A stretch of 64,000 nucleotides of DNA from positions 568,501 through 632,500 of the forward strand of contig OX359193.1 in the NCBI GenBank assembly GCA_947172415.1. The letters are read 5' to 3'. Positions 14,001 to 54,000 of this stretch are shown here, one piece after another. The translations under genes and the position numbers were made by a program. Numbering within the stretch: the first letter of the stretch is position 1; each line of letters begins with the position of its first letter. The notes under the pieces were generated by a model. The model did no database searches. It was not told the origin of the DNA and was given only the letters and a program-made list of their open reading frames with translations. Origin of the DNA: Chondrosia reniformis (lineage: Eukaryota; Porifera; Demospongiae; Chondrillida; Chondrillidae).

Positions 14001-17000
14001 GCATATAAAATGGTGATACATTATAACACATTCATTTGTACCAGGTACCATATCTAGGTACTTGTCTATATACGTATATATAACAAGAAGGTGATTAGTG
14101 ATCAATTAGCTCACACTTATCACATTTTTGCTGATAATAGTCGTCCAGTTTGTTACAGTAGCACTCCTGCTTGTAGCAATAGCCATAAAGAGGACAGCCA
14201 TTTGCACCTATATATGTATACGTTCATAATCACATGCAATACATATGTATACATGTATACTGTATATACACAATACACATATATACGTAGCATTTATATG
14301 CATATATAGGCAAGGATAGTACATATATCATGTGTTATTGTGAGGATCTACATATTGCATACAAATGAATTGCTTGATCCATGCATGCTATATACAGTAT
14401 ATATACTGATTGACTCACACAACTCTAGGCTGCAAGTTGCTCCTGTAAATCCTTTTGGACATATGCATATGTCATCTTCGCACACTCCTCCATTCATACA
14501 ATATGTACTTCCACATTTTGTACCTCCTGCAGTATCGGTATCACATACAGTAGTAGCACTGATACTGAGTCTTGGGGAGAGGGACTCACCGTCCTCACAC
14601 TGTATCCCCCCATACCCCTGGTCACACACACAGTTATTGTTAATACAGAGACCTCTCTTGGAACAATCACTAGTACCTAATACAGTCATGTATAATAATA
14701 TATATGAACATACAATGTATTCCTCTTTTTATATAGGATCAAAGCACACAATTTATAATTATTTAAAAGATATATGTATACATATATATAAAAATTATTC
14801 TTGTCAGCAATAATACATTTTCCAGTATAAATAAGAGGCCATACAAGTTGGTTCTTTCAGAAACATCAGCTTACATAAAACATCTTCACAATGTTCTCCA
14901 GTGAAACCATGAGGACACTCGCAAGAGCTATCCCTACTACAAGTTCCATTGTTAGCACAATATGTTTGACCACAAGTGGTCACCTCTATGGCATTGCAAT
15001 AGAGATAGACAGTATTATGAAGTATTATGAAGGAGTTGTAGCACTTTGATATGCGTACCTTTCTCACAAGAGAAGCCTCCATATCCTGGAGGACAAATAC
15101 ATTGCATCACAAAGTGATCCACTAGACAGATGCCACCATTTTCACAAGGGAAATCACCTACAGGTAAAATTGTAAAGTCAGTACTTTATAGAGCATAAAC
15201 AACAGACCTTTAACAGGTTAGAACGTTTTAATCTGGAGGCCTTCGTCAGCAATCATATAATGATTGCAAAAATACCCTATGCCAGACCAATTGTATATAT
15301 AGATTATATAGGAGATTAATATTCACAAGGTCTACTATATATATACACATTTAATCTGTGATCTCAATAGATACTAAATACAATTAGGTATGTGCGTACA
15401 TTGCCTGGTTTCACAGAACTGTCCAGTTAGACTTGGAGGACAGATGCAAGTACTTGTAGCTTGATCACATGTTCCTCCATACAAGCAGTGACCCTCTCCA
15501 CATCTCTCAGGAGCTGTAAGCAATAAATCATATATACCTCATATATATATATACAGTGCAAGTTACAATATACTAAGGTAATCTAAATAAATAATATAAT
15601 ATAATATAATATAATATAATTAAATAATTCATATGGCTCCAAGAAAGGACCTAGAAACAAAATGGGCATATCATCATAAAGTTTAGGGTATAAAACTCAT
15701 TTTAAATTAAGGGAATTTTTTATTTAGGCCTCCGTTTGTTAGAAAACGGAGGACAAAATCTGCATATAAAAGGCCATAGGACTATAGAAAACCTATAGAA
15801 AATTTATATTCAAACCATGTGTTATATTAATAAAAATTTTCAATTTGTCAGATAACTGTGAAACCAACACATATCATGGTAAATGTACATAGGAAACGGC
15901 TGGCGAAGTTTTGCTTAATTAAATGAGCAAAATAATCAAGATATAATGAAGAATTCAAGGTTACGATTGCGCAATCTGGTGATGTATTATGATGTTTCTC
16001 TGGTGCGTCACCAACATCTCTCGTATGTCGCTCCGTATACACATTAGTGAATCTTGTGACGTTACGAAAACGTCACCGCCTCGTTGCTAAAGAAGATCAT
16101 CCCTTTTGTGAACGGTTATGACAAGTCGACGCTCTCCTACGAGAAGGAGCTACGGAATAAGCGAGTTGTAGCGAAGGTTAGATAAAGCGTATTTGTATAC
16201 GTTCCCGTTAAGTTTGAGGCAGAATTGTCCTTATATTGATGCAAAAGAAATTCGTTTAGTCGACCGTATTAAAACTTTGGTAATTTAAACTTAGTCTTCT
16301 CTTCGTATGTTTTTTGTTCATATTTTTACTTGCAATTGTCCATGTGTAGGAATAAGGAGTGTTATATATTATGCATGTTTAAATACAATCAAGTACTACA
16401 CAGTGCAAGTTACAAATTTATACACGGATGCAAGTGACTCCCAAGATAATCACACTGAGGTATATAATATAATACGGATGCAAATGACTCCCAAAATAAT
16501 CACTATCAGGTATATTAAACGCTACAAGACTTTAGCCACACTGAAATTCTCAACTGCTGCATACAGAGTAGTCCCTTGTGTGCAAGTTACTAAATTGTCT
16601 CTCACCCTGTTGTTTATGTGAATGCATGCAAGCAACCAACGGTACTCCTAGCTCACACTCAAGGCAAGTCAAATCTGCGGTGATTATTGGCTGAGACCCC
16701 CTGCATGAGACTGGAATTTTTGCTGATAATGGCATGCAGATGCAGCATCTTCAGTCTATACTAAGGTGTGAAAAGGTAATTGGAAGGCCATGTGTTTAAC
16801 CTTATATGATCTGTAGACTACTACTCTGTATGCAGCAGTTGAGAATTTCAACTAGTGTGGCTAAAGTCTTGTAGCGTTTAATATACCTGATAGTGATTAT
16901 TTTGGGAGTCATTTGCATCCGTATTATATTATATACCTCAGTGTGATTATCTTGGGAGTCACTTGCATCCGTGTATAAATTTGTAACTTGCAATTGCACT

Positions 17001-17004
17001 GTGT

Positions 17005-17035
<31 letters not shown>

Positions 17036-20000
17036 GTGCAAGTTACAAATTTAAAGAGATCCAAGTGACCCCTAGGATAATCAGTATTTTAAACAGTACA
17101 AGACTTTAGTCACACTAGTACTATTGCAGGCTTTGAAATCCTCAACTACTACATAGAGAGTAGTAGTTGATACAGATCATCCAATTGCAAGGTAGAACAC
17201 ATGACCTACCAATTACCTTTTCACATCTTAGTATAGACTGAAGATGATGCATCTGCATGCCATATATCAACAAAGGCTCCAGTATTAAAGGGGTCTCAGC
17301 TAATAACCACAGCAGATTTGATTTGCCTTGTGAGGGAGCTAAGAACACCGATGGTTGGTTGCATGCATTGGCATGTTAGAGACCATTTTGTAACTTGTAC
17401 ACAAGGGACATAAAGGCCAAGGCCTTTATATACGTATATGATGTTACCACCATCTCCCATAGAATGCTACTCCACTAACTCAACCGAAGACTTGGGGATG
17501 TCAATGCATATCAGCTAGTCTGGCTTACTAGACCATCCCATAAACACAACGATATCCTTGTTCGTATAAGGAAGGACAACTGACCACTATAGGAAGTCCA
17601 GTATTAGAGACCTTATCGGGGGCATGGCAGGGGTGAAAAACGAATAAGCTCACGCTCCGTGCGTATTTCGTACCTTTCGACTTAGTCTCTGATCAGATTA
17701 TAGGTATACAGTATATAACTCTAATAGATTACCTTAGTATATTGTAACTTGCACTGTATTTAGGCGAAAAATTACACGGCCATCTTATTAAAATTTACGA
17801 CAATGACTCTATAAAGTACCTATATAAGGTAGAAAATGGTTTTGAAACGAGTAAGATATTGCCTACCTATCCTAGGGCTGGTCGTTTTAAGCAATGCTGT
17901 TGTGTATTGGATGTATCAGTATTATTTCAATTTTAAGCCATTAATTTCAGTCGGTTACGTTAGTAATGAAGGTTTTCATGAAGTTGGATTAATTAAGACT
18001 ACAACGGAGAATATTGGGAGACAAGCACAGAAGGTAACTGAATCTGTTGGCAGAAATACAGCTAGTCATATTCGAATTCATAAGGAGTGTCATGCCACAG
18101 GCGATGATGTACTACCTCGTTGTCCATTTTGTGTTCAAAAGAGTGAAGTTGATTATTCAAGCGTAAGGGTCTTCATCGAAAGCTATGACGGTTTGGCTCA
18201 CCCTATGAATTATGGAATTACCTTCTCAAATGCTGTTAATAATGCATCTGAAACATGTCACACTTCTTCTGGAGGTGGTTGTGTAATGTTAACTGACATT
18301 TTAGATGCTCCTAGTGCTGACGTGGTTTTTAGGATGCATCGGAAATATATACCAAATGAACACAAGGTTAGATATTGCTATCCTCAGATCATGTCCTTCT
18401 TAAATACTGAAAAGGAAGGTGCACTTTTTTGGACAAGACCAATTATTAAACATGCAGAAATTTCCATCAATTCCCGTCTGTCCGCTGATGTCATATTTCA
18501 TGAAGGATGTCAGAAACGGTATACTAGCTATATAAACAGTTATAAACCAGTTCAACCTGAAAGTAGGCAGGGAGCAGTGATGATGTTGAGTGATTGTATG
18601 CCTGAGATGCAATGGAGAACAGACTATATTGAAAAGTTAATGACATTTGTTCACATTGACAGTCATGGACAGTGCTTCCATAATGTCGAAGATAAAGAAG
18701 ATCGTTTTGTACACAACTGGAAGGATAGAGCAATTGTAAGAATGAGCAAGTATAGAGTAGCTATTATGTTTGAAAATACAGTAGAAGAAGGCTACATCAG
18801 TGAAAAGATTTTCCTAGCTTATGCTGCTGGATGTGTTCCAGTTTACATGGGAGCACCTGACATACACTATTGGGTACCGGGCAATCACAGCTATGTGGAT
18901 GCGTCAAAGTTTGAAGGTCCAGAGAAATTGGCAGAACATATCAAGAAAATCCTCACTGACGACAAAGTGTATAAAACCTATATTTCAAGCCTAGAGATAG
19001 AAAGATTGAAAGAGTTTCAGAGAAAGCATTGTACCAAGGACCATTATCTATGTGAACTTTGTAGAAAGGCATATTGGTTGAAGAAGGAATCTTTTGAGAA
19101 TGGAAGCAGATCATGTCATTGTTAACCATGAATTTGCATTTTTAATGGGAATTAAATTTCTGTGATTTACAATGAGACTCCTGATTTTTTTCTAGTTTTT
19201 TTTAGCTTTCTAGTTAGTTTAAACCTAACTGTAATTGTAAACCATTAAATACAGTAACTATTTTTGTTTCCTTTCATCTTGATTGATGTCAACCATATGT
19301 AGAATATATCTTTAGGAATGGGTATTGTGGCTACATGTGTCATGGTTCCAGTGGAAGTATTGGAAGTCACCTTTTGTATATATTGAAATACAATCTATCA
19401 ACCATGTAGGACAAAACTAATGGAACATTTATTTATGATTCTTATGAAAAAAATAAGTACAAGCATAGAGTTTATAGAGAATCTGATGAAAAATATTCAT
19501 ACACTAATGAGCTGCATGATGTGTCAATCACAATGAAAATGTCTCAATTGTATCTGAATGTCCTTAATTCCTGTTTTCATGGGAGATTAATTTATTGTAT
19601 AATATGTATATAAACGTGAAGTTAATAGTTTTGCAGCTCATATACATATCAGAGAGTACGGTAGTACTCTCTAAGTAGGAATGGCCGGAAAAAAAATGGC
19701 CGCCCTATCCAATGTATTAGACACCTCATAAATCGCCAACGAAGCGATTTTCGGTTATATTCGGTTATTTGCAGCGATTAATGCACGCTTTCCTAAAATT
19801 AATGCCAAAACATGTTTCGACGCTCTACACGCTCTATAGCGTTCAAAAAGCGGCTAACTAGGAATAGACCCACTTCCAAAATTCATTTTTTCTTCTTCTT
19901 CTTTTATTGAATAGACTAGCGCTAATATGCGAACTTATGCGGGCACGTACTAGTTATAAATCGTCATAAATATTTCGGAACTATAGGGAATAGACAGCCC

Positions 20001-23000
20001 TAAATCTGAATGCGCTCTACAATAAGCATGTTAATTGTGAAGAGCGAAAATTGTGGTCTTCTCGGACGCCATTTTTTAATTAAGAGATCATGGTTTTCGG
20101 CATATTTCTCTTATCTAAGACGTTATTTTGAGATCTTCGCCAAGAAAACTTTCAAATCAATTTAAAACTAGTAATATTAAGGGGGAATACAAGTAAATAA
20201 AAACATTTACAAAAATGATGTTAGAAGTAGGAATGGTAGTGTTTACTAATACATCTGCAAAAAGTATCGAAACAAGACACTGATTATATGATAAGGCTAA
20301 TCATACAGAAGTTGCATATATACTGAAATTTAAGTAAATTAACCATACACTTCTGTGTTTGGGCGCATCATTCCTACTTAAGGTTAGTGCGCCCAAACAC
20401 AGAAGTGTATGGTTAATTTACTTAAATTTCAGTATATATGCAACTTCTGTATATGATTAGCCTTATCATATAATCAGTGTCTTGTTTCGATACTTTTTGC
20501 AGATGTATTAGTAAACACTACCATTCCTACTTCTAACATCATTTTTGTAAATGTTTTTTATTTACTTGTATATTATGGGGTATATACCATTTGTACCAAA
20601 ATGGTGACCTGTACGCAGCAGTTGAATTACTGGAAGGACCCAATAAATTATTAGCCACCTACTCAATTAACCAATATCGCTAACGCGAAAGTTGAGATAT
20701 CATAACAAGTAGTTCGAGTTTAAAAACTCGTGGGGCTACCGCCCCCCGAATTCACTCGAACTAGCTACTTGGCCGCATCGTTGGGCTTTAATATATTATT
20801 CTTAATCCTAACGATTGAGGACGACTAAACGAATTTCTTTTGCATCAATATAGGGAGCTACCGAATAAGCGAGTTGTAGCGAAGATTAGATAAAGCGTAT
20901 TTGTATACGTTAATTCCCATTAAGTTTGAGGCAGAATTGTCCTTCTATATATAGCAACAATTCTGGCTTAAACTTAACATGAACGTATACAAATACGCTT
21001 TATCTAACCTTCGTTACAACTCGCTTATTCCGTAGCTCCTTCTCGTAGGAGAGCGTCGACTTGTCATAACCGTTCACAAAAGGGATGATCTTCTTTAGCA
21101 ACGAGGCGGTGACGTTTTCGTAACGTCACAAGATTCACTAATGTGTATACGGAGCGACATACGAGAGATGTTGGTGACGCACCAGAGAAACATCATAATA
21201 CATCACCAGATTGCGCAATCGTAACCTTGAATTCTTCATTATATCTTGATTATTTTGCTCATTTAATTAAGCAAAACTTCGCCAGCCGTTTCCTATGTAC
21301 ATTTACCATGATATGTGTTGGTTTCACAGTTATCTGACAAATTGAAAATGTTTATTAATATAACACATGGTTTGAATATAAATTTCCCATAGGTTTTCTA
21401 TAGTCCTATGGCCTTTTATATGCAGACTTTGTCCTCCGTTTTCTAACAAACGGAGGCCTAAATAAGAAATTCCTTAATTTGAAACGGGTTTTATACCCTA
21501 TACTTTATGATGATATGCCCATTTTGTTTCTAGATCCTTTCTTGGAGCCATATGAATTATTTAATTACATTATTTATTTATATTATATTATTTAGATTAC
21601 CTTAGTATATTGTAACTTGCACTGTATATAAGCCCAGGGACAACAGATACACTTGCACAGTATATATATAGACATGTAAATATATAATATACGTTCCCTT
21701 TACTCAGTACGTACATACCTATTTCACACTGGTCTCCTTCAAATGGTCCATCACAAACACACTCCCCATTTACACAAATACCATGATTCATGCATGGAGG
21801 ATCACCTGTGAATAAACAGGGACATATGCATGGAATGTACAGTGAATAAAAGTCTATGGTATATTAAACCTGCACTGTATATATATATATATATACTTGC
21901 ACTGTATATATATATACGTATACATACATATATGTAAGTACATTTGGAAAATTTTCAGTCGCTGATGAAGACCCTCAGGGTCAAAATGTTTGACTAAAAG
22001 AATTATCAAGCCAAACTGCGTTTTTAGACGTTCAAAGATTTGAAAGATGTACCATCTAAAAGATTTGAAAATATGTACTGTATTATATGACTTCTCCTAT
22101 TGCCAACGTACAACTTCTCTCTTGACAGTATATTCCACTATAGCCCTCCTGACATATGCAGCTCATCTCTCCACACAAGCTTCCACTCAAACAGGGAAAC
22201 TTGCGGTCACAGAGTGTATAATCTGACAGAACAACACAACTTTGAAGAGCTGCATGCATTTTCATATACAGTCAACCCACAATCATCACATCCGGTGTGA
22301 TTTCTGATGCCCTCAAGGTTCTCCATGCACAGGCACCTGCCAGAATAGCAATGCCCAAATGGGTCACCGGGGCAACCATCACCTATAGGGTTAGAGCAAT
22401 TTGTATATACGTAACTAGTATCCGTTATCAATTAGCAGGACTTGTGTGATTGTAATTGACTGACTGGTTGTAACTTGCATACTGCTGCATGTATTCTGTT
22501 CTAGAACTCTCTGTGCATGTGCATATATATCTATGTACCCTTATTGTACGTTATTCTTATTGAAGTGGTATTACGGTTGAAGTTCATTTGTTAGTGCGGT
22601 TTATATAGCGTATCGTAACTAGTATTACAGTCACTTGCACACATGAGTAAGCATGATTGATGATATATTGGTGCATATATAGCACATACTACACATATAC
22701 ATTATAAGGTATACTACGCTGTTTATCTAAGAGTCTTATATAGGTACACTCATACGTACATATATATTGTACATAGTGCAGTGTGCCTTGCTTGCTTGTG
22801 TATATGTATATATACATGCAAAGGACTTACATATTTCATTCTCACAGTGCTCTCCAGTAAATCCGTCTGCACACATACAACCAGTGTCTGTACATGACCC
22901 GCGGTTTTGACAAAACGTTGTAGTGCAAATAGCAAACTCATCAACTATACATATATATATGAGTAGGTATATATATTAAATCATGTTTATATATGTTTAT

Positions 23001-36564: not shown

Positions 36565-39500
36565 ATGGGTCTAGGAAATAGTCTGTTTTCCTTAGCGCTC
36601 ATGCTGACATCAGCAATGCTATCAGAAAGTAAGTAGTACTCTCTAATTAGAGATGGTCTATATATACAAGCAAGTTGATACTGTAAATCATGATATAAAA
36701 TTTAAACATCATTTTCTGTGGATGTGGTTGACATGCTTATAACTTAAGCTAAGGAAAAATAGACCATTTAGACTTATTACTTGGGTAAAGAGGTTTTATT
36801 GATGTGTGCATGGATATAGCTTATATCAATGCATGTTTCTTCCTTTTTATAATATATGTATGTACATTGCAGGACAGATGTTTCTGAGAGTATATACCAC
36901 GTACCTTCCACCAGTCTTCTCTAAATCTTGAAAAGTAATTAGCCATGTAAATATTTTTGTAAGAAGTAATTTTGGAGCAATGCATGTTATATATATATAA
37001 ATGATAGCTCTGTATGTTTATTCTAATTAGACACAATTATACCAAATATAGATGTACATTTGTCCATTTTTATTATTTTTATTTCTTTTAAGATGGTCAG
37101 AACATAACTAAACAAGTGATTTCAATGGATAGTTCAACTTCAGTTGGACCTACTGCATCAAGCTCAGTTGAAGCTACCGCATCAAGCTCAGTTGAAGCTA
37201 CTGCATCAAGCTCAGTTGAACCAACGGTATCAAGCTCAGTTGAAGCTACGGCATCAAACTCAGTTGAAGCTACCACATCAAGCTCAGTTGAAGCTACCAC
37301 ATCAAGCTCAGTTGAAGCTACCACATCAAGCTCAGTTGAAGCTACCACATCAAGCTCAGTTGAAGCTACCACATCAAGCTCAGTTGAAGCTACCACATCA
37401 AGCTCAGTTGAAGCTACCACATCAAGCTCAGTTGAAGCTACCACATCAAGCTCAGTTGGACCTACCACATCAAGCTCAGTTGGACCTACCACATCAAGCT
37501 CAGTTGAACCTACAGCATCAAGCTCAGTTGAACCTACAGCATCAAGCTCAGTTGGACCTACCACATCAAGCTCAGTTGAAGCTACCACATCAAGCTCAGT
37601 TGGACCTACCGCATCAAGCTCAGTTGAACCTACCGCATCAAGCTCAGTTGAACCTACAGCATCAAGCTCAGTTGAACCTACGGCATCAAGCTCAGTTGAA
37701 GCTACCACATCAACCTCAGTTGAATCTACCACATCAAGCTCAGTTGAAGCTACCACATCAAGCTCAGTTGGACCTACCACATCAAGCTCAGTTGAACCTA
37801 CCACATCGAGCTCAGTTGAAGCTACCACATCAAGCTCAGTTGAACCTACAGCATCAAGCTCAGTTGAACCTACGGCATCAAGCTCAGTTGAAGCTACCAC
37901 ATCAAGCTCAGTTGGACCTACCACATCAACCTCAGTTGGACCTACCACATCAAGCTCAGTTGAAGCTACCACATCAAGCTCAGTTGAAGCTACCACATCA
38001 AGCTCAGTTGCAGCTACCACATCAAGCTCAGTTGAAGCTACCGCATCAACCTCAGTTGAAGCTACCACATCAAGCTCAGTTGGACCTACCACATCAAGCT
38101 CAGTTGGACCTACCACATCAAGCTCAGTTGAAGCTACCACATCAAGCTCAGTTGGACCTACCACATCAAGCTCAGTTGGACCTACCACATCAAGCTCAGT
38201 TGAACCTACAGCATCAAGCTCATTTGAACCTACAGCATCAAGCTCAGTTGGACCTACCACATCAAGCTCAGTTGAAGCTACCACATCAAGCTCAGTTGGA
38301 CCTACCGCATCAAGCTCAGTTGAACCTACGGCATCAAGCTCAGTTGAACCTACGGCATCAAGCTCAGTTGAAGCTACCACATCAAGCTCAGTTGGACCTA
38401 CCACATCAAGCTCAGTTGAAGCTACCACATCAAGCTCAGTTGAAGCTACCACATCAAGCTCAGTTGGACCTACCACATCAAGCTCAGTTGAAGCTACCAC
38501 ATCGAGCTCAGTTGAAGCTACCACATCAAGCTCAGTTGAACCTACAGCATCAAGCTCAGTTGAACCTACGGTATCAAGCTCAGTTGAAGCTACCACATCA
38601 AGCTCAGTTGGACCTACCACATCAACCTCAGTTGGACCTACCACATCAAGCTCAGTTGAAGCTACCACATCAAGCTCAGTTGAAGCTACCACATCAAGCT
38701 CAGTTGCAGCTACCACATCAAGCTCAGTTGAAGCTACCACATCAAGCTCAGTTGAAGCTACCACATCAAGCTCAGTTGAACCTACAGCATCAAGCTCAGT
38801 TGAAGCTACCACATCAAGCTCAGTTGAAGCTACCACATCAAGCTCAGTTGAACCTACCACATCAAGCTCAGTTGAAGCTACCACATCGAGCTCAGTTGGA
38901 CCTACTGCATCAAGCTCAGTTGAAGCTACCACATCAAGCTCAGTTGAAGCTACCACATCAAGCTCAGTTGCAGCTACCACATCAAGCTCAGTTGAAGCTA
39001 CCACATCAAGCTCAGTTGAAGCTACCACATCAAGCTCAGTTGAACCTACCACATCAAGCTCAGTTGAACCTACCACATCAAGCTCAGTTGAACCTACCAC
39101 ATCAAGCTCAGTTGAAGCTACCACATCAAGCTCAGTTGAAGCTACCACATCAAGCTCAGTTGAAGCTACCACATCAAGCTCAGTTGAAGCTACCACATTG
39201 AGCTCAGTTGGACCTACCACATCAAGCTCAGTTGAAGCTACCACATCAAGCTCAGTTGAAGCTACCACATCAAGCTCAGTTGGACCTACCACATCAAGCT
39301 CAGTTGGACCTACCACATCAAGCTCAGTTGAAGCTACCACATCAAGCTCAGTTGCAGCTACCACATCAAGCTCAGTTGCAGCTACCACATCAAGCTCAGT
39401 TGCAGCTACCACATCAAGCTCAGTTGAACCAACAGCATCAAGCTCAGTTGAAGCTACCACATTGAGCTCAGTTGAAGCTACCACATCAAGCTCAGTTGAA

Positions 39501-42500
39501 CCTACAGCATCAAGCTCAGTTGGACCTACCGCATCAAGCTCAGTTGAAGCTACAACATCAAGCTCAGTTGGACCTACCGCATCAAGCTCAGTTGAAGCTA
39601 CCACATCAAGCTCAGTTGAACCTACCGCATCAAGCTCAGTTGAAGCTACAACATCAAGCTCAATTGAAGCTACCACATCAAGCTCAGTTGAACCTACGGC
39701 ATCAAGCTCAGTTGAATCTACCACATCAAGCTCAGTTGAACCTACGGCATCAAGCTCAGTTGGACCTACCGCATCAAGCTCAGTTGAAGCTACCACATCA
39801 AGCTCAGTTGGACCTACCGCATCAAGCTCAGTTGAAGCTACAACATCAAGCTCAGTTGAAGCTACCACATCAAGCTCAGTCGAACCTACGGCATCAAGCT
39901 CAGTTGAAGCTACCACATCAAGCTTAATTACTATTGGACCAACTCCACAACCAATAGAGGGTGGGTCAATATGTATGTGTTACATTTCAGTGTAACAACA
40001 TGTCAACTTAATTATAGATTACACCACATGCAGTAATTAATAATGAATTTATATATATGAAGGACACATGTACGAAAATTTCAACATTGTTTTAATAGTT
40101 TACTAGCAATTCACTGTCTTCTTGAAGTAGAGTAATTTAAACAAGCTTATGTAGTTCAAAAGAAGGCAGATGAATGTACGCATGTATACTGTATGTGTAT
40201 ATATATAGGAAGATATATGTGTGCATAATACTTCTTCAGAGTACATGGCACATCTGATGATATAGGTGCGACTCAAGGTTTGAACTGTATTTCTTGTATA
40301 CTTATAAAGGTTGCACTGAAGATATCACAAAGTACACGAATGAGGTGAATCTGACATGGCCAGTAACAGAACTCAATGCTACAGCAACACTTTCCTGTCC
40401 ATGTTCGGACAATTCCACTTCACTCTTCAATCTCACCAGAAAGTGTCATGGAAACGGAACATGGGGAGTGGTCTACACTGAGCAATGTCAGCTATTATAC
40501 GTCTGTGGAAATGTAATTGGCTTTAGCTATGAATGAGTATAGTATATGACAGTTTGTATAGAAATATAGCTTCACTAGAAGTAATACATATACAAAGTAT
40601 AATTAATCTTTTATATCTAGTCTATTAATCTTCTAGTCTATTAATCTTCTAGTCTATTAATCTTCTTCTTCTAGTCCATGGAGACAATTCTGGAGAAGTA
40701 CTCAAATAAAACAGCTAATGAGCATTTGAATGTAATTGAGGTATCATCCATAATCTATGCAGTGAGAGTGCTAGCATCAGTTGACAGTGTCTATAACAAT
40801 AGTGTAAGTATACCTTATAGACTGTACATTTAGAATTACATGCTGTACGAGAATGTTATTATTTTATGTGCATGACAATAGTTACTTTTTCTTGTCTTTC
40901 TACATCATCCTTCACAGACAAGGGATACACTGTTGAAAATACTGGATAACATTTTAGATGTAGATGCCAGTATATTGGAGATCATAGGTAGTAACCCTCA
41001 TTTAACTCTCAGGTACATATGAACATGTAATATAATATGTACACACCCCTTCACATGTCACACCCCTTCACATGTCACACCCCTTCACATGTCACACCCC
41101 TCACATGTCACACCCCTTCACATGTCACACCCCTTCACATGTCACACCCCTTCACATGTCACACCCCTCACATGTCACACCCCTTCACATGTCACACCCC
41201 TTCACATGTCACACCCCTCACATGTCACACCCCTCACATGTCACACCCCTCACATGTCACTCCCCTTCACATGTCACACCCCTCACATGTCACACCCCTT
41301 CACATGTCACACCCCTCACATGTCACACCCCTTCACATGTCACACCCCTCACATGTCACACCCCTTCACATGTCACACCCCTCACATGTCACACCCCTTC
41401 ACATGTCACACCCCTCACATGTCACACCCCTCACATGTCACACCCCTTCACATGTCACACCCCTTCACATGTCACACCCCTCACATGTCACACCCCTTCA
41501 CATGTCACACCCCTTCACATGTCACGCCCCTTCACATGTCACACCTCTCACATGTCACTCCCCTTCACATGTCACACCTCTCACATGTCACACCCCATCA
41601 CATGTCACTCCCTTCACATGTCACACCCCTCACATGTCACACCCTTCACATGTCACACCTCTCACATGTCACACCCCTCACATGTCACTCCCCTTCACAT
41701 GTCACTCCCCATGTGCATACACACTCCTTCATTTACACAACCTTTGTGCATTCTTTAGTAGCTAACAGACTCACTGTGTACGTGTACATTTGTGGGTAAG
41801 CAGACTTTACTATAAATCTGTTCTGTTTGTTCAAGGTTTATGGAGTCAATTGATATCATATCCAAATTAGCCAGCGAGTCCTTTACCTATTCTGGTAAAA
41901 TGATGCAAATTAGTGTGATGATAAAGGAGGCATCTGTAATCCTAGGGAATGGATTATTGTCAAACCTGGGTAAAGGTGGAATTATCTTGCCAAAGTCTCT
42001 GTTTGAAGAAGGGACTTTCAGGGTAGGGTTTATTGCATTTCGAGGAGACAGTGTTACCATATTTGGAAAGTCACACAGTCAGGCAACAGTTGGTAGTGAC
42101 ATATTTGGAGCTACAGTTTATGATAGAAAAAGTCCAGTTGAAGGATTGGAAAATCCTGTCAAAATTTATTTTCATAAGACCACAGTAAGTCTCCTTATAC
42201 TTGATCAAATAGCTGCAGTTATGTGAAATTACAGATATTTGTACATTTGTGGAATTCCCAGAAACAGCTATATACCGTATGGACCTAAATTTTCGTGGTT
42301 TTCGGTTTTTCACACTTTTCGCGTTTTTATTTTCGCAGATGATTAGTCCCACGAAAATTTAGGTCCATATGGTATCAGGCCCAGTGGTAAAGAAAAATAT
42401 GGAGAAAACCCTTGTATCCTCATCCAAAGCTCTCACCAGGTATAGTATGGGCCTTTTATTCTAAAGTAGATGTAGGATATTGAAAATGGTGTATTAGGTC

Positions 42501-45009: not shown

Positions 45010-48000
45010 TCAAAGGAGAAAGCTAGTAGGGGCAGAGTCTAAGGGTTTGCCAGGATCTAAGTGTTCCTCACCAGCAACCTGTCTTGCCAGTGTAGTCAAA
45101 GTCTTGTGAAGGTCAGAGAGGCAGGATGTAGGGATCTCAATACCTAGTACAGTAAAGGGATCCCTTTGAATGATACACGAGCATCACATGGTTGTCACAT
45201 GAGCATCACATAGGTGTCACATTTAGTATCAATGGTTGTCACATGAGCATCACATAGGTGTCACATTAGTATCAATGGTTGTCACATAAGCATAAGCATC
45301 ACATGGGTGTCACATGAGCATCACATGGGTGTTACATAGTGTCACATGAGCATCACATGGGTGTCACATGAGTATCACATGGGTGTCACATGAGCATCAA
45401 ATGAGTGTCACATGAGCATCACATGAGTATGACATGGGTGTCACATGAGCATCAAATGGGTGTCACATGAGCATCAATGGGTGTCACATGAGCATCACAT
45501 GGGTGTTACAGGAGTACAAACTAACCAACTAATTTCCTTCCTTCCCTTGTTTGTATTCGGACAATCTGCATCTTGTAGTTCTGAGAGTGATGTCTACTGA
45601 AGACACCTTCCAAATGGTTCCATATTCCAAGAACAGAACCACTAAGTATGAAGTGCTCCCTTCTTCTCAAACCAACATTACAAGTACCAAACAGGGACAA
45701 CTTACATTTCCCCAACCTACGTAGGCATGGCAACAGGAAACAGTGGTACAAGCAGATGTGGAAGAACAGGAAGCAAGATAAAAAAGTGAGGTTAGAAAAT
45801 AGGAAGTGACATTCATGGGAAAGGTCGGAGAACAGGAAGTGAAGTGAAAAAGGTGAGAGAGGTATGTAGCTTGGCATACTACGTACATGTTTGGATTACA
45901 AGTATGTCATACAATGAAACCTTACGTGTACAAGTGTTGGCAAAATTTATTGGACGAAGTATACTGATGTTCCCACCACACTTGAGCTTCCTCTGGGGTA
46001 ACCTAGCAACATAAATCAATTAATAAGTTAGATTGTGAAATCAGCCAATATCTGTAATTAGTCCTTCAACTTGATGGTATTGCGCAACCTTTTGGCCAAT
46101 GAGCTCTTATAAAGGTCTTAAGAAGATAATACCTTTTTGTATTTTGCTTGTATAGCTGATAGTTTTTCATGCTTAGCTGATACTCCAGTGTTGGGTCTTG
46201 TTATGAGGTAGAGATTCTCTTTGACATCAGCACTCTTCACAAGAATGGCCATCTTCCGGTCCATTGCATACACCTAACACGGGACACAAAGGTGACACTG
46301 GATTGATAGCCACTAACAATGAAATTATAGTGGTGGAAATATTAAGCAGTGTAGAACCAGCCATATCTTAAGTTGATTGTGAAACTACATTTATCTAGAG
46401 CGATGCATGCATGAACTAAAAAGGAAATCGGTCATCACTCCATAGGGAATGAACCAGACCATTTCCTTATATGGGAATGAACCAGACCACTTCCTTATAT
46501 GGGAACGAGCCAGATCACTTCCTTATATGGGAATGAGCCAGACCACTTCCTTATATGGGAATGAGCCAGACTCACTCTTTTGGATATATAGAACCCTTCT
46601 CCTGGCTGCCTCTCATGTTCTAGCCTATCCACAGCTGATTGATATGAGACACCTCGCTCTATCAGTACCTTAACAAAGAAAACAAACTACACTCAGACCA
46701 TATGACAGGAAGCATGCAGGGATATGAACAGGAAGTAGACAGGTTGGCAGGAAGCAAACACACTGGTAGGAAACAGAAAGATTGACAGCAGTCTAAAGAG
46801 AGACTAACAGCCATTACTTTGTTTAAATAGGTTGTAGCAGTCCTAAAGGCTGGGTCTCCAATAAACTCTTCAGTTGTCACTATTTCAACATTCTCACCTC
46901 CGCTTCCAAAATCTACAGAATTTCAAACCACATTGGACTACAAAATCACTCTACGCACTGTGTTCATGCGACGAAGGTAGAGCCAACTCACCGACAATAC
47001 CCCCATCCCACTTCCCCATTCGCTTGGCCTGTAATATTAAGAGGTTTAGAGTGTCAGTGAAGTAACTGAATATTTGATTTTGAAGCTTAACAGGAACTCC
47101 CAGAAGTCGATTGAGGAACTTTGAGATGTTGGAAGCATCTGTCAATTTTGGAATAGGAAATGTGAAAAAGAACTTTAAGAACAGATTAGCAAATCAAAGA
47201 CAGCTTCCTAAGTTACAAGCTACACCTACCTTTGTCCATGTCCACTTTTCCAGAATATTCATTTCTGTGTAGCAACCCTGCTCCAATTAGAGCGGTCGTA
47301 GCTCCTATTGCAAGACAAGTAGACATGACTGGATGAACTGATCTCTCAGAGAGAAGAGAAGAGTGGTAGAACAGTTCTTCAACACTAGCAGCCTCGGCAA
47401 TGGCTTACTAGTCTAGATGAGCTAGCTGAGGCTAGAATATCATCTTAGCTACTATCTCAATAAGGCTCTTTTTACAAGTCATAATTCACTTTTTGATATC
47501 CACTTACTACTGAAGAAGTCAGCATTGTAGTCCTGTCCCGAGACTAGAGGCTTTGAAATGCCCACTACAGACTGAAGAACAAGTTCCAGCGCTGCTCTGC
47601 CGTACTGCATGGAAAGTAGGAAGGAAGGGGAGGGTAGCTGAATTATTATCAGAGTAACCAGAATATTAATGAGGGGCTCTTCTTGTGTATACCTTAGTAT
47701 CAATGTTGAATCTACTCAGATCGCGGGTCTCCCCTGCTCTCCTGTCACCATGTGTCAGTGCACCCTAGCACACATCACACATCACACAATCAGATATATG
47801 TACGTACATACTGGAATGATATCCACCACTCTATGTAGCACATATATGTAGGTGGGAATATGATCTCAGTGCGCTTACCAGGCTCTCCAGTCTCTTAGAG
47901 ACAGTTGAGGCAAACCTTTTCTCCCCTGCAAGTGCTGAAATGAGGAAGACATATTCAGGAGCTGAGGTCTGGTTGGACCTGTGAGTACGACCTGTAGGAG

Positions 48001-51000
48001 AACCAAGGGAGAGGGGATGGTGGATGGGCGGTGGTGGGAGGGCAGATGGGCGGGTGGTGGGAGGGCAGATGGGCGGGTGGTGGGAGGGCAGATGGGCGGG
48101 TGGTGGGAGGGCAGATGGGCGGGTGGTGGGAGGGCAGATGGGCGGGTGGTGGGAGGGCAGATGGGCGGGTGGTGGGAGGGCAGATGGGCGGGTGGTGGGA
48201 GGGCAGATTGGTGGGTGGTGGGAGGGCAGATGGGCGGGTGGTGGGAGGGCAGATGGGCGGGTGGTGGGAGGGCAGATGGGCGGGTGGTGGGAGGGCAGAT
48301 GGGCGGGTGGTGGGAGGGCAGATGGGCGGGTGGTGGGAGGGCAGATGGGTGGTGGTGTTTGGACATACCAAACTGCTGAATGGCCTTGTCAGCACTCCAA
48401 GGTAACTCAAGCGTAATGTGAACCCTTCTCTTTTGATTCTTAAGGGAACACAAAGAAAGAACAATGTTAACACATGATGCAATCATAACCAGTAGCTCTC
48501 GTGTTGGCTACCTTTTCTCTTCTATCTGCATGGAGGGATATCCCAGAACTGGCTGCCTCCGATATGATGGCTACATCCTGAGAGGTAGGATGGGATCACA
48601 GGGTTGGCTAAACACAAAATGAATCTTGTAAAAACATAATCTGAATACCTTTTCTCCATCCATGAATGCTTGCTTCTCTGCTAGGTTCATCATCTCCACG
48701 GGAATGTCCCCTTGACTCCTCAGCTGGTACTTGACTGTCCCATTGGGCTGGCTCACCAGACGACCTCTTCTCCCCGTCATCTGTAGCAAGGGAAAGACCG
48801 TGACGGACACTCAATCAAAATGGCCGACACTTTATACATGCCCTTGTGTAGTCACAGGACATAACAAATGGAACTACCTAGTACATTAATAATTTAACAC
48901 ACCAATTTTCTTACATGCTACATCTACTTTAGAGTAAACGTTCTATTGGGTTTGAGTGAGAGGTTTGGATGAGGATACAAGTGTTTTCGTCTTCTTCTCT
49001 TCTTCTCCACATGTCAGCATGCAGCATGCAGCATTCCAGGAATTAGCACAATCAGTTAACCTAACTTTATGACCTCACAAACAGGCAGTACCCACCTCTG
49101 ACACAAAGAGTGGTCCGCCAAGTCCTTTAATCAGCTCATCCAGTGTATTGTGTGGAAGATAGGGAGAGAGGACGTGCAACTTTTGCAACAACTCATCTTT
49201 TAACTTTGCTACTACAGAGCTCCTAGCAGCTGGGTCTGTGCTGTGCTTTGCTGACTCAACCAGTCCTTCTGTCTGTGCTGAAGAGAAGCTTGCTAGTGAG
49301 TCCCTTAAACTGCCTCCTGTTGCTAAGCTCCTGGGAGAAGGTTGGTTGCTATGACTACGGCCAATAAGGTTTAAATAAGGCTTCTCCTCCTTCATTAAGG
49401 AGGGTATAGCTATTGAATGTCTTCTGGAAGTTGATGGTTTTCCAGAAGACTTTAAGGGTTCTTTGTTCAGCTTTCTCTTCTTGGCTTGAGGTTTCTTCCT
49501 GTGAGAAGCAGCTGAAAACAAAAGAGACATCTCAATTTTAGAGAACTGTCATCATCACTGAATCATTTGGTTGTCATTGCAATTTAAATATTTAAAACTT
49601 ACCTTCAAACATTTTAAATGGATCTATGGAATCATCATTATCATCTGAGGACGGACTATCACTGTCAGTGTCACTATCAGTATCACTACTCTCACTGTCA
49701 TTACTAAAGTCACTGTCATCTTCAGAATCACTGCTGGCAACTGTGCAAATATTAAAGAGTCAAACTTATGCAATAAAGAGTCAAACTTATGCAATAAAGA
49801 GTCAACCTTATGCAATAACATATTTGGACACTAGCTTGTTGAAGCAAGTCAATCTCTTAGGCAACCTTGACTATCCTCACCTTCTTCTCCTCTGAGACGC
49901 TTTCTTAAGCTAGCGGGTAGTGTGGGGTCATCAAAGAGGTCGTAATGAAACAAACTACTTTTCACTTCAGCAGTTGGAAAGTGCTTCTTTATCAAACTTT
50001 CAAATACACCCCTGCAGCCAGATACAATTCAATCAACAAAGAAAGGTACATATACAGTGCTACACTGTCAGATTAGAGTGGAGATACACGAAACTAGATC
50101 AAAGGGATGAGCTTACTTAGCAGTTGACACAAACTCAGTTAGTTCCCCTCTGGCCTGCTCCAGTTGCTCTAATGTGCGAGCCTCTCCAGTAGACTGCAAA
50201 CCAATAACCACACACTACAGAAACAAGACAGCATTAAGATGGCTGACCATTATAAGAGCGACCATTATAAGAGCACATTAAGATGACCGCTAACTACAAG
50301 AGCACATTAAGATGACTGCTAACTACAAGAGCACATTAAGATGGCTGACCATTGTAAGAGCGACCATTATAAGAGCACATTAAGATGGCCGCTAACTACA
50401 AGAGCACATTAAGATGGCCGCTAACTACAAGAGCACATTAAGATGGCCGCTAACTACAAGAGCACATTAAGATGGCCGCTAACTACAAGAGCATATTAAT
50501 AGTAAAGCTAACCTTTCCCTCTTTTATTGATTTTTTGGCTAATGCAATAGCTTCTTTGACTTTGGCTGCTATGCATAGATACTTGAAGAATCGCTACATT
50601 ACAATAACATAAAGAAACTCAAAGCCTACGTAGCAAGGCACACTTCCTTTGAGGAATAAAGGGGTCACCCTCAGAGGGGGAAGAGCTGTGTGCTACTTAT
50701 AAACTTGCCTGGTGGGCAGCCCAGAAGAGGGACCACATGTGAGAGACATCAATATCCAGGAGTTGAGCTGCTTCTTCAAACTTCCTCTTTGCCTCCACCC
50801 ACTACAACAACAAGTGACTTCACATATCAGATGAGCCCATGTTGCCGACAATATTCCAAGTGATTGTGTTTGTTTGGAAAACACCACAACTATGACATTG
50901 TGTTCTTAAGGCACCAAAAACTAAATCTGTACTATCTAACTAAATCTGTACTAACTAACTAAATCTGTACTAACTAACTAAGTCTGTACTAACTAAGTCT

Positions 51001-54000
51001 GTACTAACTAAGTCTGTAGGATGAATGTGTGTGTGTGGCCACTCACAATGTCCACAGCTGCATCGTACATGTCTATAAAGTCCTCAGACAGCTGTACTTC
51101 CTTAATTTGAAAGGAGACTCCATGGAAACTAAGTTGGCGGGCAATGTATGCACCACGCAGCTGCACAAGTACACAAACAGCAAAATGGATGCCATACAGG
51201 TTGTGTATTGACACTAGTGCCAACCTTCATATCCATGGCAACCAGTTCCATGGCACCAACACCTCTCCTCTCTACAGCTTTCAGAAAGTCTAAAAAGTCA
51301 TCAAATTGGGTTCCCTTTCCCCAAATACCCAACCTGGACATGTAACCCATGTTACGAGGCTCAGATGCACCTATATGTGTAGGAACACAGTTTTAAGTAC
51401 ATTTCATCACATATACGTACACATCTGTCACCCACGGTACACATCTGTCACCCACGGTACACATCTGTCACCCACGGTACACATCTGTCACCCACGGTAC
51501 ACATCTGTCACCCACGGTACACATCTGTCACCATGACAACAAGTCTGTCACCCATGGTACACATCTGTCACCCATGGTACACATCTGTCACCCACATCAT
51601 GTCTGTCACCAGGACAACATTATGAATACACAGTCTGACCTGTAGCACTGCAGTAAACAATCCTGGCCTTGGGCAGTCTCTCCTGAAGTTCCAAAACTAC
51701 AGTTCCCGTCTTACTTGGCTTGCCTGACTTGGAGGGAAAGAGGTTCTTGGCTTTGTGACACTCATCTAGAACAATCTTGTGAACAGTCAAGGGTGTAACA
51801 CTTGTTAGCACTTTGTAAATAAGTACAAAACACAAGCATCACCTGATAAATACGTGCAGTACTTATCAAGGATTCCACACAGTGAAACTGTAAACACTAA
51901 ATGTATTTCAAAAGTGAACATCTGTGCATAGTCCGTTGAGGATACCAATCCATCAAATCCTGTACCCAACCAGTGCAAGAGCTGGTTAAGTCTTGTGCTA
52001 TACTTGCCTCCTGAAGTACTCTTGCCAATTAGTGCAGAGTAGGTACTGAATATAACTCCCTTTTTAACTCTGTCATTTCGTTTACCACTTATCTTTCCAT
52101 AGCGAAACTATTTCACAAATACAGCACAACTTTTAACTCTTGTAAGAAGGTTCATATAAAAACTTACTTTATTGAGAGCGTACACTTGAAGCTTTTTTGC
52201 CCCAACATCGTGTAAATCCCTAAAAAGAAGGAAAAAGGAGGAACTCAAAAAAACTTACAAAAAAACAAAAACTCAGGTATCTAATCCAGCTAATCCAGCT
52301 AATCTTCAATAAAGAGAACCAACTGTTATATTATTAACTACTTACTATATATCTATATATAAATTATTATTGTAATATTGCCATTTTATTGTTACACCTT
52401 GAAAAAAAAAAAAAAAAAAAGGAGGAAAAAAAAAGAAAAAAGTGCCGAAACCCGGGATCGAACCAGGGACCTTTAGATCTTCAGTCTAACGCTCTCCCGA
52501 CTGAGCTATTTCGGCAGCTTACTTAGGTCTCTTGTTTTGAATATTTAAACCAACCTCACCTCATCGCGTCATATTTCAAGTCGTTGGATACACTTAACCT
52601 GAATGAACACACGGAATGTAAACGAGTGTGAGAACATTACAACAATGTTATATTCATCTCAATCTTACCAAACTGCCTTCTTCCTTCCATCCAAATAATT
52701 TTGGTAAATAATCCCTAGGAGCACAAACAAGACTACCAATAATTCATGCTGCGCAACTTCATGTTGCAACAGAAGAGATCTATGATTTACCTGCAATGAT
52801 TCTTCCTTTACCAACACCAGCTCCGTCACCTAGAAAACATACAATTCATAACTGTGGTAATTTTTTGGGATAGTAAATTCAACACCATTATCAAATATAT
52901 TAAAGATGTGCTATTTTTTTGGGGCGCCAAAGGTTTTAATATGGATTCTTGTTCAGAACCTTGTATATACCGTCAACAAAATGGCAGACACTCAGGCTGG
53001 ATTTCGCTTACTAAGCTTAAAGCTAGCTTTCACTTCCTTTTGTTGAAACATTGAACCAATGAATAGGATTTAGAAACCACCTTTACTAATACTATGCAAC
53101 GTAAAGCCTGCACAAAACGTTTTCTACAATAGATGGCCTTGAAATTGACGGTATTCGAGCAACGACCAGAATCAGTTAACCAGACATCTAACAACTAGCA
53201 AGTAGTTTGAGTTTGGGGGCGTCAGGTGCCCCACAAGTTTTTAAACTCATTTATTTGTATTACATGTACAAAACATTACAGTGACATTGGATTTTACAAC
53301 AAAGTATTCAACATCTGGATACCAAGCATATATCATTGTAGTTGTAGCAAGTTCTAGAACTTTAATTAACAAAATATGATTCATAAAGTAGTAATTCATG
53401 AAACACTATTTTACTTCAGATATGGTTGACATCAAAAATAGACTGTTTTCAAGGCTTGTTACTAAGAGAAAGCTTATATAGAGCTTTAGGATGATGATAC
53501 AGCTTCATTCCAACCTAGTCATAGTTCACTAGATTCCAAACAGTTTAAAATGCCACTTCTGCATGTCCCTTACCAACAAGAAACCCAGCTCTACAGCCGT
53601 TGCCCAAGATATTCATGTGCTGTTGACAAGTGTAGACCACTGCTTCCAGCTGGAGGGCAGAGAGCTTCTTCTCCTCGATGATGCTGACAGGGAAGGTGAG
53701 ATCTAACCACACTGACGGAGGTTCCACACTGGACAATGTACTGTACATAATGGGGGCCAAAGATCAGTACATTAAGGGGGTGACAGGTGAGGACATGAAG
53801 GGGGGTGGTGGGTGAGGACATGAAGGGGGCGTGGTGGGTGAGGACATGAAGGGGGCGTGGTGGGTGAGGACATGAAGGGGGCGTGGTGGGTGAGGACATG
53901 AAGGGGGCGTGGTGGGTGAGGACATGAAGGGGGCGTGGTGGGTGAGGACATGAAGGGGGCATGGTGGGTGAGGACATGAAGGGGGCGTGGTGGGTGAGGA

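Follow-up and report, generated by a model that had tools for sequence, protein, structure and literature searches.

A complete fucosyltransferase gene within an inverted-repeat transposon block in an intron of the sponge Chondrosia reniformis: probable gene capture by repair of a broken palindrome

The stretch of DNA analysed here (the window) comprises 64,000 nucleotides of the sponge Chondrosia reniformis (assembly GCA_947172415.1, contig OX359193.1, referred to below as C5; C5:568501-632500) and carries, at positions 15554-21624, a block of about 6 kb with inverted arms that contains an intact fucosyltransferase gene of the GT10 family. Genome searches covered the whole assembly, which is 117.4 Mb long and consists of 15 contigs. 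The block interrupts, as the initial annotation had proposed, an intron (15514-21718, minus strand) of a gene with epidermal growth factor (EGF)-like repeats that runs on the strand opposite to the fucosyltransferase gene. The intron has GT..AG ends with EGF-like exons on either side, and minus-strand EGF-like segments flank the block both to the left and to the right. Its present length is 6205 bp, which falls to 134 bp once 15554-21624 is subtracted, so that practically all of the intron DNA is inserted; six other introns of the same gene, placed by eye, measure 73-778 bp. Six EGF-like segments were compared with Pfam: two scored above the family cut-off, one was equal to it and three were below it, including the exon adjoining the left arm (17.8 bits), and the host gene, an EGF receptor gene in the initial annotation, can thus be assigned only as far as its EGF-like repeats.

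The matching ends next to TA and the inverted arms of about 700 bp that had been described at this locus were confirmed. The ends of the block (15548-15590 and 21588-21630) are complementary at 43 of 43 positions, six of these bases being the TATATA flank, and the arms (683 and 676 bp) are 96.6% identical over 675 aligned sites when the whole left arm is set against the right. The longest inverted piece (15701-16236/20949-21484) spans 536 nt at 97% and a second (15596-15720/21464-21588) spans 125 nt at 87%. From the genome density of minus-strand tips, only 0.014 would be expected within 6.1 kb of a plus-strand tip, and the paired facing tips are therefore more than a chance arrangement.

The interior of the block is a patchwork in which several pieces of repeat accompany the donor segment, rather than two arms around a gene. 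The left arm A of the repeat family (15554-16401, plus strand; tip CAGTGCAAGTTACAA) is followed by an inner palindromic unit B (16402-17003), which has the same tip as A and arms (16404-16542/16854-16992) that are 100% complementary, then by the start of a right arm, TGTAGTACT, which passes into a TA repeat (17001-17033), an ending also found in the family copies L016 and L018, and then by half of a related palindromic unit B' (17034-17444, plus strand), severed at the hairpin centre. The donor DNA that precedes the gene (17442-17724, plus strand) matches a paralog on contig C8, here called C8b2, and overlaps B' by a TGT microhomology at 17442-17444. It is followed by a 45-bp remnant of an A-family tip (17725-17769), common to a second C8 paralog (C8a), by the immediate upstream region retained from the donor (17770-17835, plus strand) and by the gene itself (17836-19125, plus strand). 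Downstream donor DNA continues on the plus strand from 19126 to 19649 and from 20559 to 20701 (97-98% and 95.7% of aligned bases, respectively, identical to C8b2), interrupted by a 909-bp repeat insert (19650-20558) that is not in C8b2. A repeat R (20703-20823), truncated where the right arm begins, and the right arm A' itself (20822-21624, minus strand), with a small internal fold like that in the right arm of family copy L021, complete the block. The 909-bp insert contains a perfect palindromic hairpin (20199-20558; arms of 107 and 65 nt, 100%), and a 97% copy of most of the insert around this hairpin lies near another GT10 gene on contig C2 (L043). Inside the block we found no open reading frame (ORF) of at least 150 aa besides 17836-19125, transposase fragments not having been searched for; there is therefore no room for an intact transposase, in line with the earlier description.

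The gene is a single exon encoding a protein of 429 aa with an N-terminal helix. The product matches the Pfam family Glyco_transf_10 (E 6.6e-24), and its FENT..EKIF stretch aligns with solved GT10 enzymes, its solved relatives being mango FUT13, Arabidopsis FUT11 and human FUT9. The predicted fold has a mean predicted local distance difference test score (pLDDT) of 74.4, from an alignment of 22 sequences and with residues 25-79 poorly predicted; a fold search ranked solved GT10 enzymes first (7yro, human FUT9, FUT11), with template modelling (TM) scores on the query of only 0.4-0.5. Domain and fold both place the protein in GT10, and the intact, intronless fucosyltransferase of the initial annotation is borne out. 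The reading frame of the C5 copy is open and retains the N-terminal helix and the FENT..EKIF stretch; the gene probably still directs production of a predicted Golgi-type fucosyltransferase, using the upstream region that came with it. Comparison of the C5 and C8a coding sequences (CDS) gave a synonymous divergence (dS) of 0.040, a non-synonymous divergence (dN) of 0.013 and a dN/dS of 0.32, with 13 of the 23 differences non-synonymous against an expectation of 80% (P = 0.009). The C5 branch alone carries four synonymous and six non-synonymous codon changes, which is indistinguishable from neutral (P = 0.12), and the shortage of non-synonymous differences in the pair may reflect C8a.

The GT10 family is large in this genome: when all 38 of 38 candidates were scored, 36 matched stretches were found on eight contigs (C1, C2, C5, C6, C8, C10, C12 and C14), several of them clustered and many within long open frames. 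By protein, the closest paralog of the C5 gene is C8a (C8:4378010; 97% aa), followed by the members of a tandem cluster at C8:4798316-4804147 (94, 90 and 85% aa, the 94% copy being C8b2) and a paralog on C10 (C10:4455114; 81% aa). In the CDS tree C5 and C8a are sisters with C8b2 next, and 1266 of 1290 CDS bases (98.1%) are identical between C5 and C8a. The flanks match C8b2: gaps left out, 262 of 273 aligned bases (96.0%) agree in the upstream flank (17446-17724), and 401/413, 98/100 and 111/116 in three downstream stretches; with gaps counted, the BLAST identities drop to 90.3% (upstream piece) and 90.1% (outer downstream piece), and the figure in the junction search was 88%. The tip remnant is common to C5 and C8a (73/75 over 17695-17769) and not to C8b2, and since C8a has it, the remnant must be older than the C5 copy. 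Because the CDS is closest to C8a but the flanks to C8b2, the donor would have been a C8-type copy of mixed descent, perhaps gone now; it may be a third C8 copy. At the level of sequence, these matches establish a C8-type origin and copying of DNA that included both flanks. Neither the 15 kb surrounding C8a nor the 20 kb surrounding the C8 cluster showed an A arm.

The junctions between transposon and donor are sharp. The left junction lies at the palindrome centre, and 3 bp there are microhomologous. At its hairpin centre the intact B' copy L027 has ...GATGT|CCCTTG, where the window reads ...GATGT|TACCACC, such that the B' of the window is cut exactly at the turning point of intact copies; at the corresponding place C8b2 reads CTTGTTACCACC, TGT being common to B' and donor. 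The sequence thus marks a break at the B' centre. The right junction has 2 bp of microhomology, a CG common to R and A'. In a search with the B'/donor junction (best 40 of 475 candidates), a full match was obtained at C5 only, the B' part alone being found at 38 other places and the donor part at one place on C8. Likewise, among the best 40 of 1190 candidates for the R/A' junction, only this locus spanned the junction, and 39 other matches to R ended at 20821-20823, where A' begins. The combination of arms and fucosyltransferase was thus looked for elsewhere in the genome and, among the candidates scored, seen at this locus alone. Beside the family copy L002 (C5:4131307-4135047, near locus position 349) the hairpin centre of B' is joined directly to an arm A', which is a second rearrangement at the same point of B'.

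These junction features fit break repair at a palindrome, and we regard it as probable that the locus is a single-copy Pack-TIR, a terminal inverted repeat (TIR) element carrying host DNA, in which a broken palindromic transposon was repaired with a 3.3-kb filler from C8. A palindromic, non-autonomous, TA-targeting element (A-B...A') would first have entered the 134-bp intron. Its palindrome would then have broken at or near the hairpin centre, about 3.3 kb of the C8 fucosyltransferase cluster would have been copied into the gap through microhomologies of 2-3 bp, and the repair would have closed on the right arm.

We compared the locus with the definition of Pack-TIRs in the excerpted text of Tan et al., 2021 (PMC8277862). 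Ends of the same TIR element, with termini of at least 10 bp, stand on both sides, a single origin of the two sides being our inference; the internal sequence, which may measure 100-5000 bp, is about 3.26 kb here (17442-20701, including the 909-bp insert). The C5 segment (17436-20709, 3274 bp) has 116% of the length of its C8 counterpart (C8:4799758-4802582, 2825 bp), within the allowed 80-120%, each carrying an insert that the other is without. It is not a retrocopy of a multi-exon parent. The definition asks for a unique best hit with an identity to the parent of at least 90%; most pieces reach this identity, but the best match is split between C8a for the CDS and C8b2 for the flanks. Where the parent should be free of transposable elements in its flanking 100 bp, the 20 kb read around the cluster showed no arm of the A family. 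Internal breakpoints and one copy among the candidates scored would be in keeping with the gap-filling type; the microhomology spans only 2-3 bp.

The arms belong to an abundant family: a 34-base tip pattern has 577 exact occurrences in the 117 Mb (0 for the reversed control). Elements of this kind resemble miniature inverted-repeat transposable elements (MITEs) and foldback elements, which have short TIRs, a palindromic body, no transposase, high copy number and TA flanks; unlike the C5 block, ordinary copies carry no gene. The TA flanks and CAGTG tips of the A family also resemble Tc1/Tc3 ends, and the family may belong to the Tc1/mariner superfamily. Full-length relatives of the left arm occur across many contigs (49 matched stretches among the best 40 of 1352 candidates). 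Family copies begin with TATATACAGTGCAAGTTACAA or a near-match, and many run on into B or B'. L021 is a complete A-B-A' element of 2.5 kb with, as in the window, the small internal fold in the right arm only. Among eight extended copies a full right arm was present, within the stretch read, in L021 alone, the other seven leaving the right arm at various positions, which for six is a TA-rich run (by eye). Counted by eye among 100 of the 577 tip places, seven plus tips have a minus tip after them at a distance of up to 10 kb. For one such facing pair (C2:3805742-3810398, L076), no cargo gene was recognised in the middle 3.3 kb, for which no family search was run; this middle contains pieces of B, R and tips, along with short ORFs that reach 112 aa at most. 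Repeat R stands beside an A element in both L018 and L021, with R-type sequence reaching the insertion point, which may reflect a preference of A elements for a TA site in R.

A first alternative, which takes up the two insertions of the same element offered in the initial annotation and which we consider unlikely though a serious rival, is a series of independent events in which a C8 segmental duplicate came to lie in the intron and at least two separate family copies were later inserted beside it. The abundance of the family would make this feasible, and the C10 paralog (L065/L066, C10:4449000-4464000) stands between two family elements, so that bracketing by separate elements does occur. 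The latter locus was considered as a second composite and rejected, as the tips of both flanking elements face the gene. Against independent insertions, both outer tips lie inside the 134-bp intron, the facing tips are far closer than their density predicts, and between arms and donor there is only repeat, with no recognised intron sequence. The two window arms are, moreover, the closest to each other per aligned base among the arms scored (the best 40 of 1352 candidates for the left arm and the best 40 of 1414 for the right). In a tree of 35 arms (L001 and L003 left out as the window's own arms, matches of fewer than 560 columns dropped, one C10 arm kept) they grouped together with a support of 0.991; the left arm shows 96.6% identity to the right arm, and the best of 33 other arms reaches 95.2%; as query, the right arm has its top other match in the left arm (1104 bits, 96%), followed by one of 1058 bits (95%); and the number of states exclusive to the pair, seven, is the equal highest among 595 pairs.

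Several observations weigh against deriving the two arms from one element that broke in place. By bits, the top other match of the left arm is L002 (1118, a longer match at 94%) rather than the right arm (1104), and both the tree and the count of shared states were made without close copies found only with the right arm as query, such as C5:736526 (95%). The arms of L021 are not sisters (92.3% alike), so that arm similarity is no rule within one element. L016 and L018 finish at the same TGTAGTACT(AT)n as the left piece, so that this piece could be a truncated copy of separate origin. None of the copies examined is an intact A-B-B'-A' element, which makes the pre-break element a conjecture, and no paralogous empty site was found for this intron: the left flank as query returned only itself, and the right flank, besides itself, a place of 86 bp on C1 and, for the rest, a short repeat (best 40 of 585 candidates). 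We judge microhomologies of 2-3 bp to be near what chance would give, and weak when taken alone. All considered, we find it quite likely that the arms stem from one element, counting together gap filling and transposition of the block as a unit.

Transposition as a unit, with the gene captured elsewhere and the whole then moved to C5 by its outer tips, ranks next among the alternatives and is also rather unlikely. The two outer tips are intact, each next to TATATA, and the genome has Tc1-type DDE_3 transposase domains (124 matched stretches among the best 150 of 253 candidates), some in open frames of about 350 aa. There is also a precedent in the fly foldback element Ssk-FB4, as given in the excerpts of PMC8277862. 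On the other side, no second copy appeared among the candidates scored, no DDE_3 domain was linked to the A-family tips, a link that was itself not examined, and a TA target duplication is unreadable within the TA repeat. The proposal that the gene is mobile cargo thus held in part, since TIR-type repeats do enclose the gene, whose sequence was copied from another place in the genome, whereas its mobility found no support. Nor did we see evidence for a spread of fucosylation capacity, the composite being seen once and the C8 paralogs having no arms in the stretches read.

An assembly artefact with false inverted arms, which can arise from long inverted repeats, is very improbable here, as 3.4% of aligned sites distinguish the arms, as does the internal fold, and their family is dispersed in the genome. 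The least credible reading, a retrocopy of a spliced parental gene bracketed afterwards, would account for the intronless C5 copy and had been raised in the initial annotation, with a multi-exon parent suggested for comparison; we rejected it because the five nearest paralogs (C8a, the three cluster copies and C10) are each one open single exon and non-coding DNA on the 5' and 3' sides came along with the gene.

The proposed gene capture by repair of a broken element would have counterparts in other animals. In the excerpts of Tan et al. (PMC8277862), 370 Pack-TIRs are reported from 100 animal genomes, 115 of them TcMariner; single-copy cases are mostly explained by transposition-independent gap filling with microhomology; and animal Pack-TIRs are described as fragmented, with Ssk-FB4 the first potentially functional coding case. 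The C5 locus resembles these animal elements in having non-transposon DNA between what would be two ends of one TIR element, a parent elsewhere, internal breakpoints with short microhomology and one copy only, and differs in its complete gene with an open frame and in the pieces of other repeats at its junctions. The capture was here between chromosomes, while 59.8% of the captures in that survey came from the same chromosome, a point that tells against our reading. Ssk-FB4 of Drosophila is likewise of the foldback type, with repetitive inverted ends and a coding gene carried, but according to the same excerpts it is multicopy, polymorphic and supported by protein evidence, whereas the C5 block was seen once. 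Plant Pack-TYPE and Pack-Mariner elements, in the portion of PMC8903248 available to us, share TIRs, a TA target duplication and host gene sequence; the examples there, in plants, concern genes that gained exons from inserted elements. The short lists of titles and abstract openings consulted mention no captured fucosyltransferase, which is weak evidence. The locus looks like an example of a known gene-copying route rather than a new kind of mobile element, and is unusual within its kind in its complete gene, palindromic host element and between-chromosome source.

Elsewhere in the window, a tandem-repeat ORF of 967 aa with SSSVEATT units occupies 37092-39995, with long open frames on both strands; short-period repeat ORFs with several frames open lie at 41023-41799 and 47831-48507; and a tRNA gene (Rfam RF00005, 69.8 bits) is found at 52443-52515 on the minus strand.

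The notable feature of the locus is the capture of a whole gene. Because one and the same B' centre is joined to donor DNA in this block and to A' beside L002, the hairpin centres of palindromic elements might be recurrent points of break and capture, the family might repeatedly take whole genes, and the fucosyltransferase might be a working new gene, a broader possibility that we hold to be doubtful. Under the repair of a broken element with C8 DNA, the locus, where an enzyme gene stands complete and open together with its own upstream region, would clearly exemplify the duplication of a whole gene from one chromosome to another by a DNA transposon, with breakpoints sharp enough for testing the hairpin-break and gap-filling model, and would add a dispersed copy to a fucosyltransferase family that has a tandem cluster.

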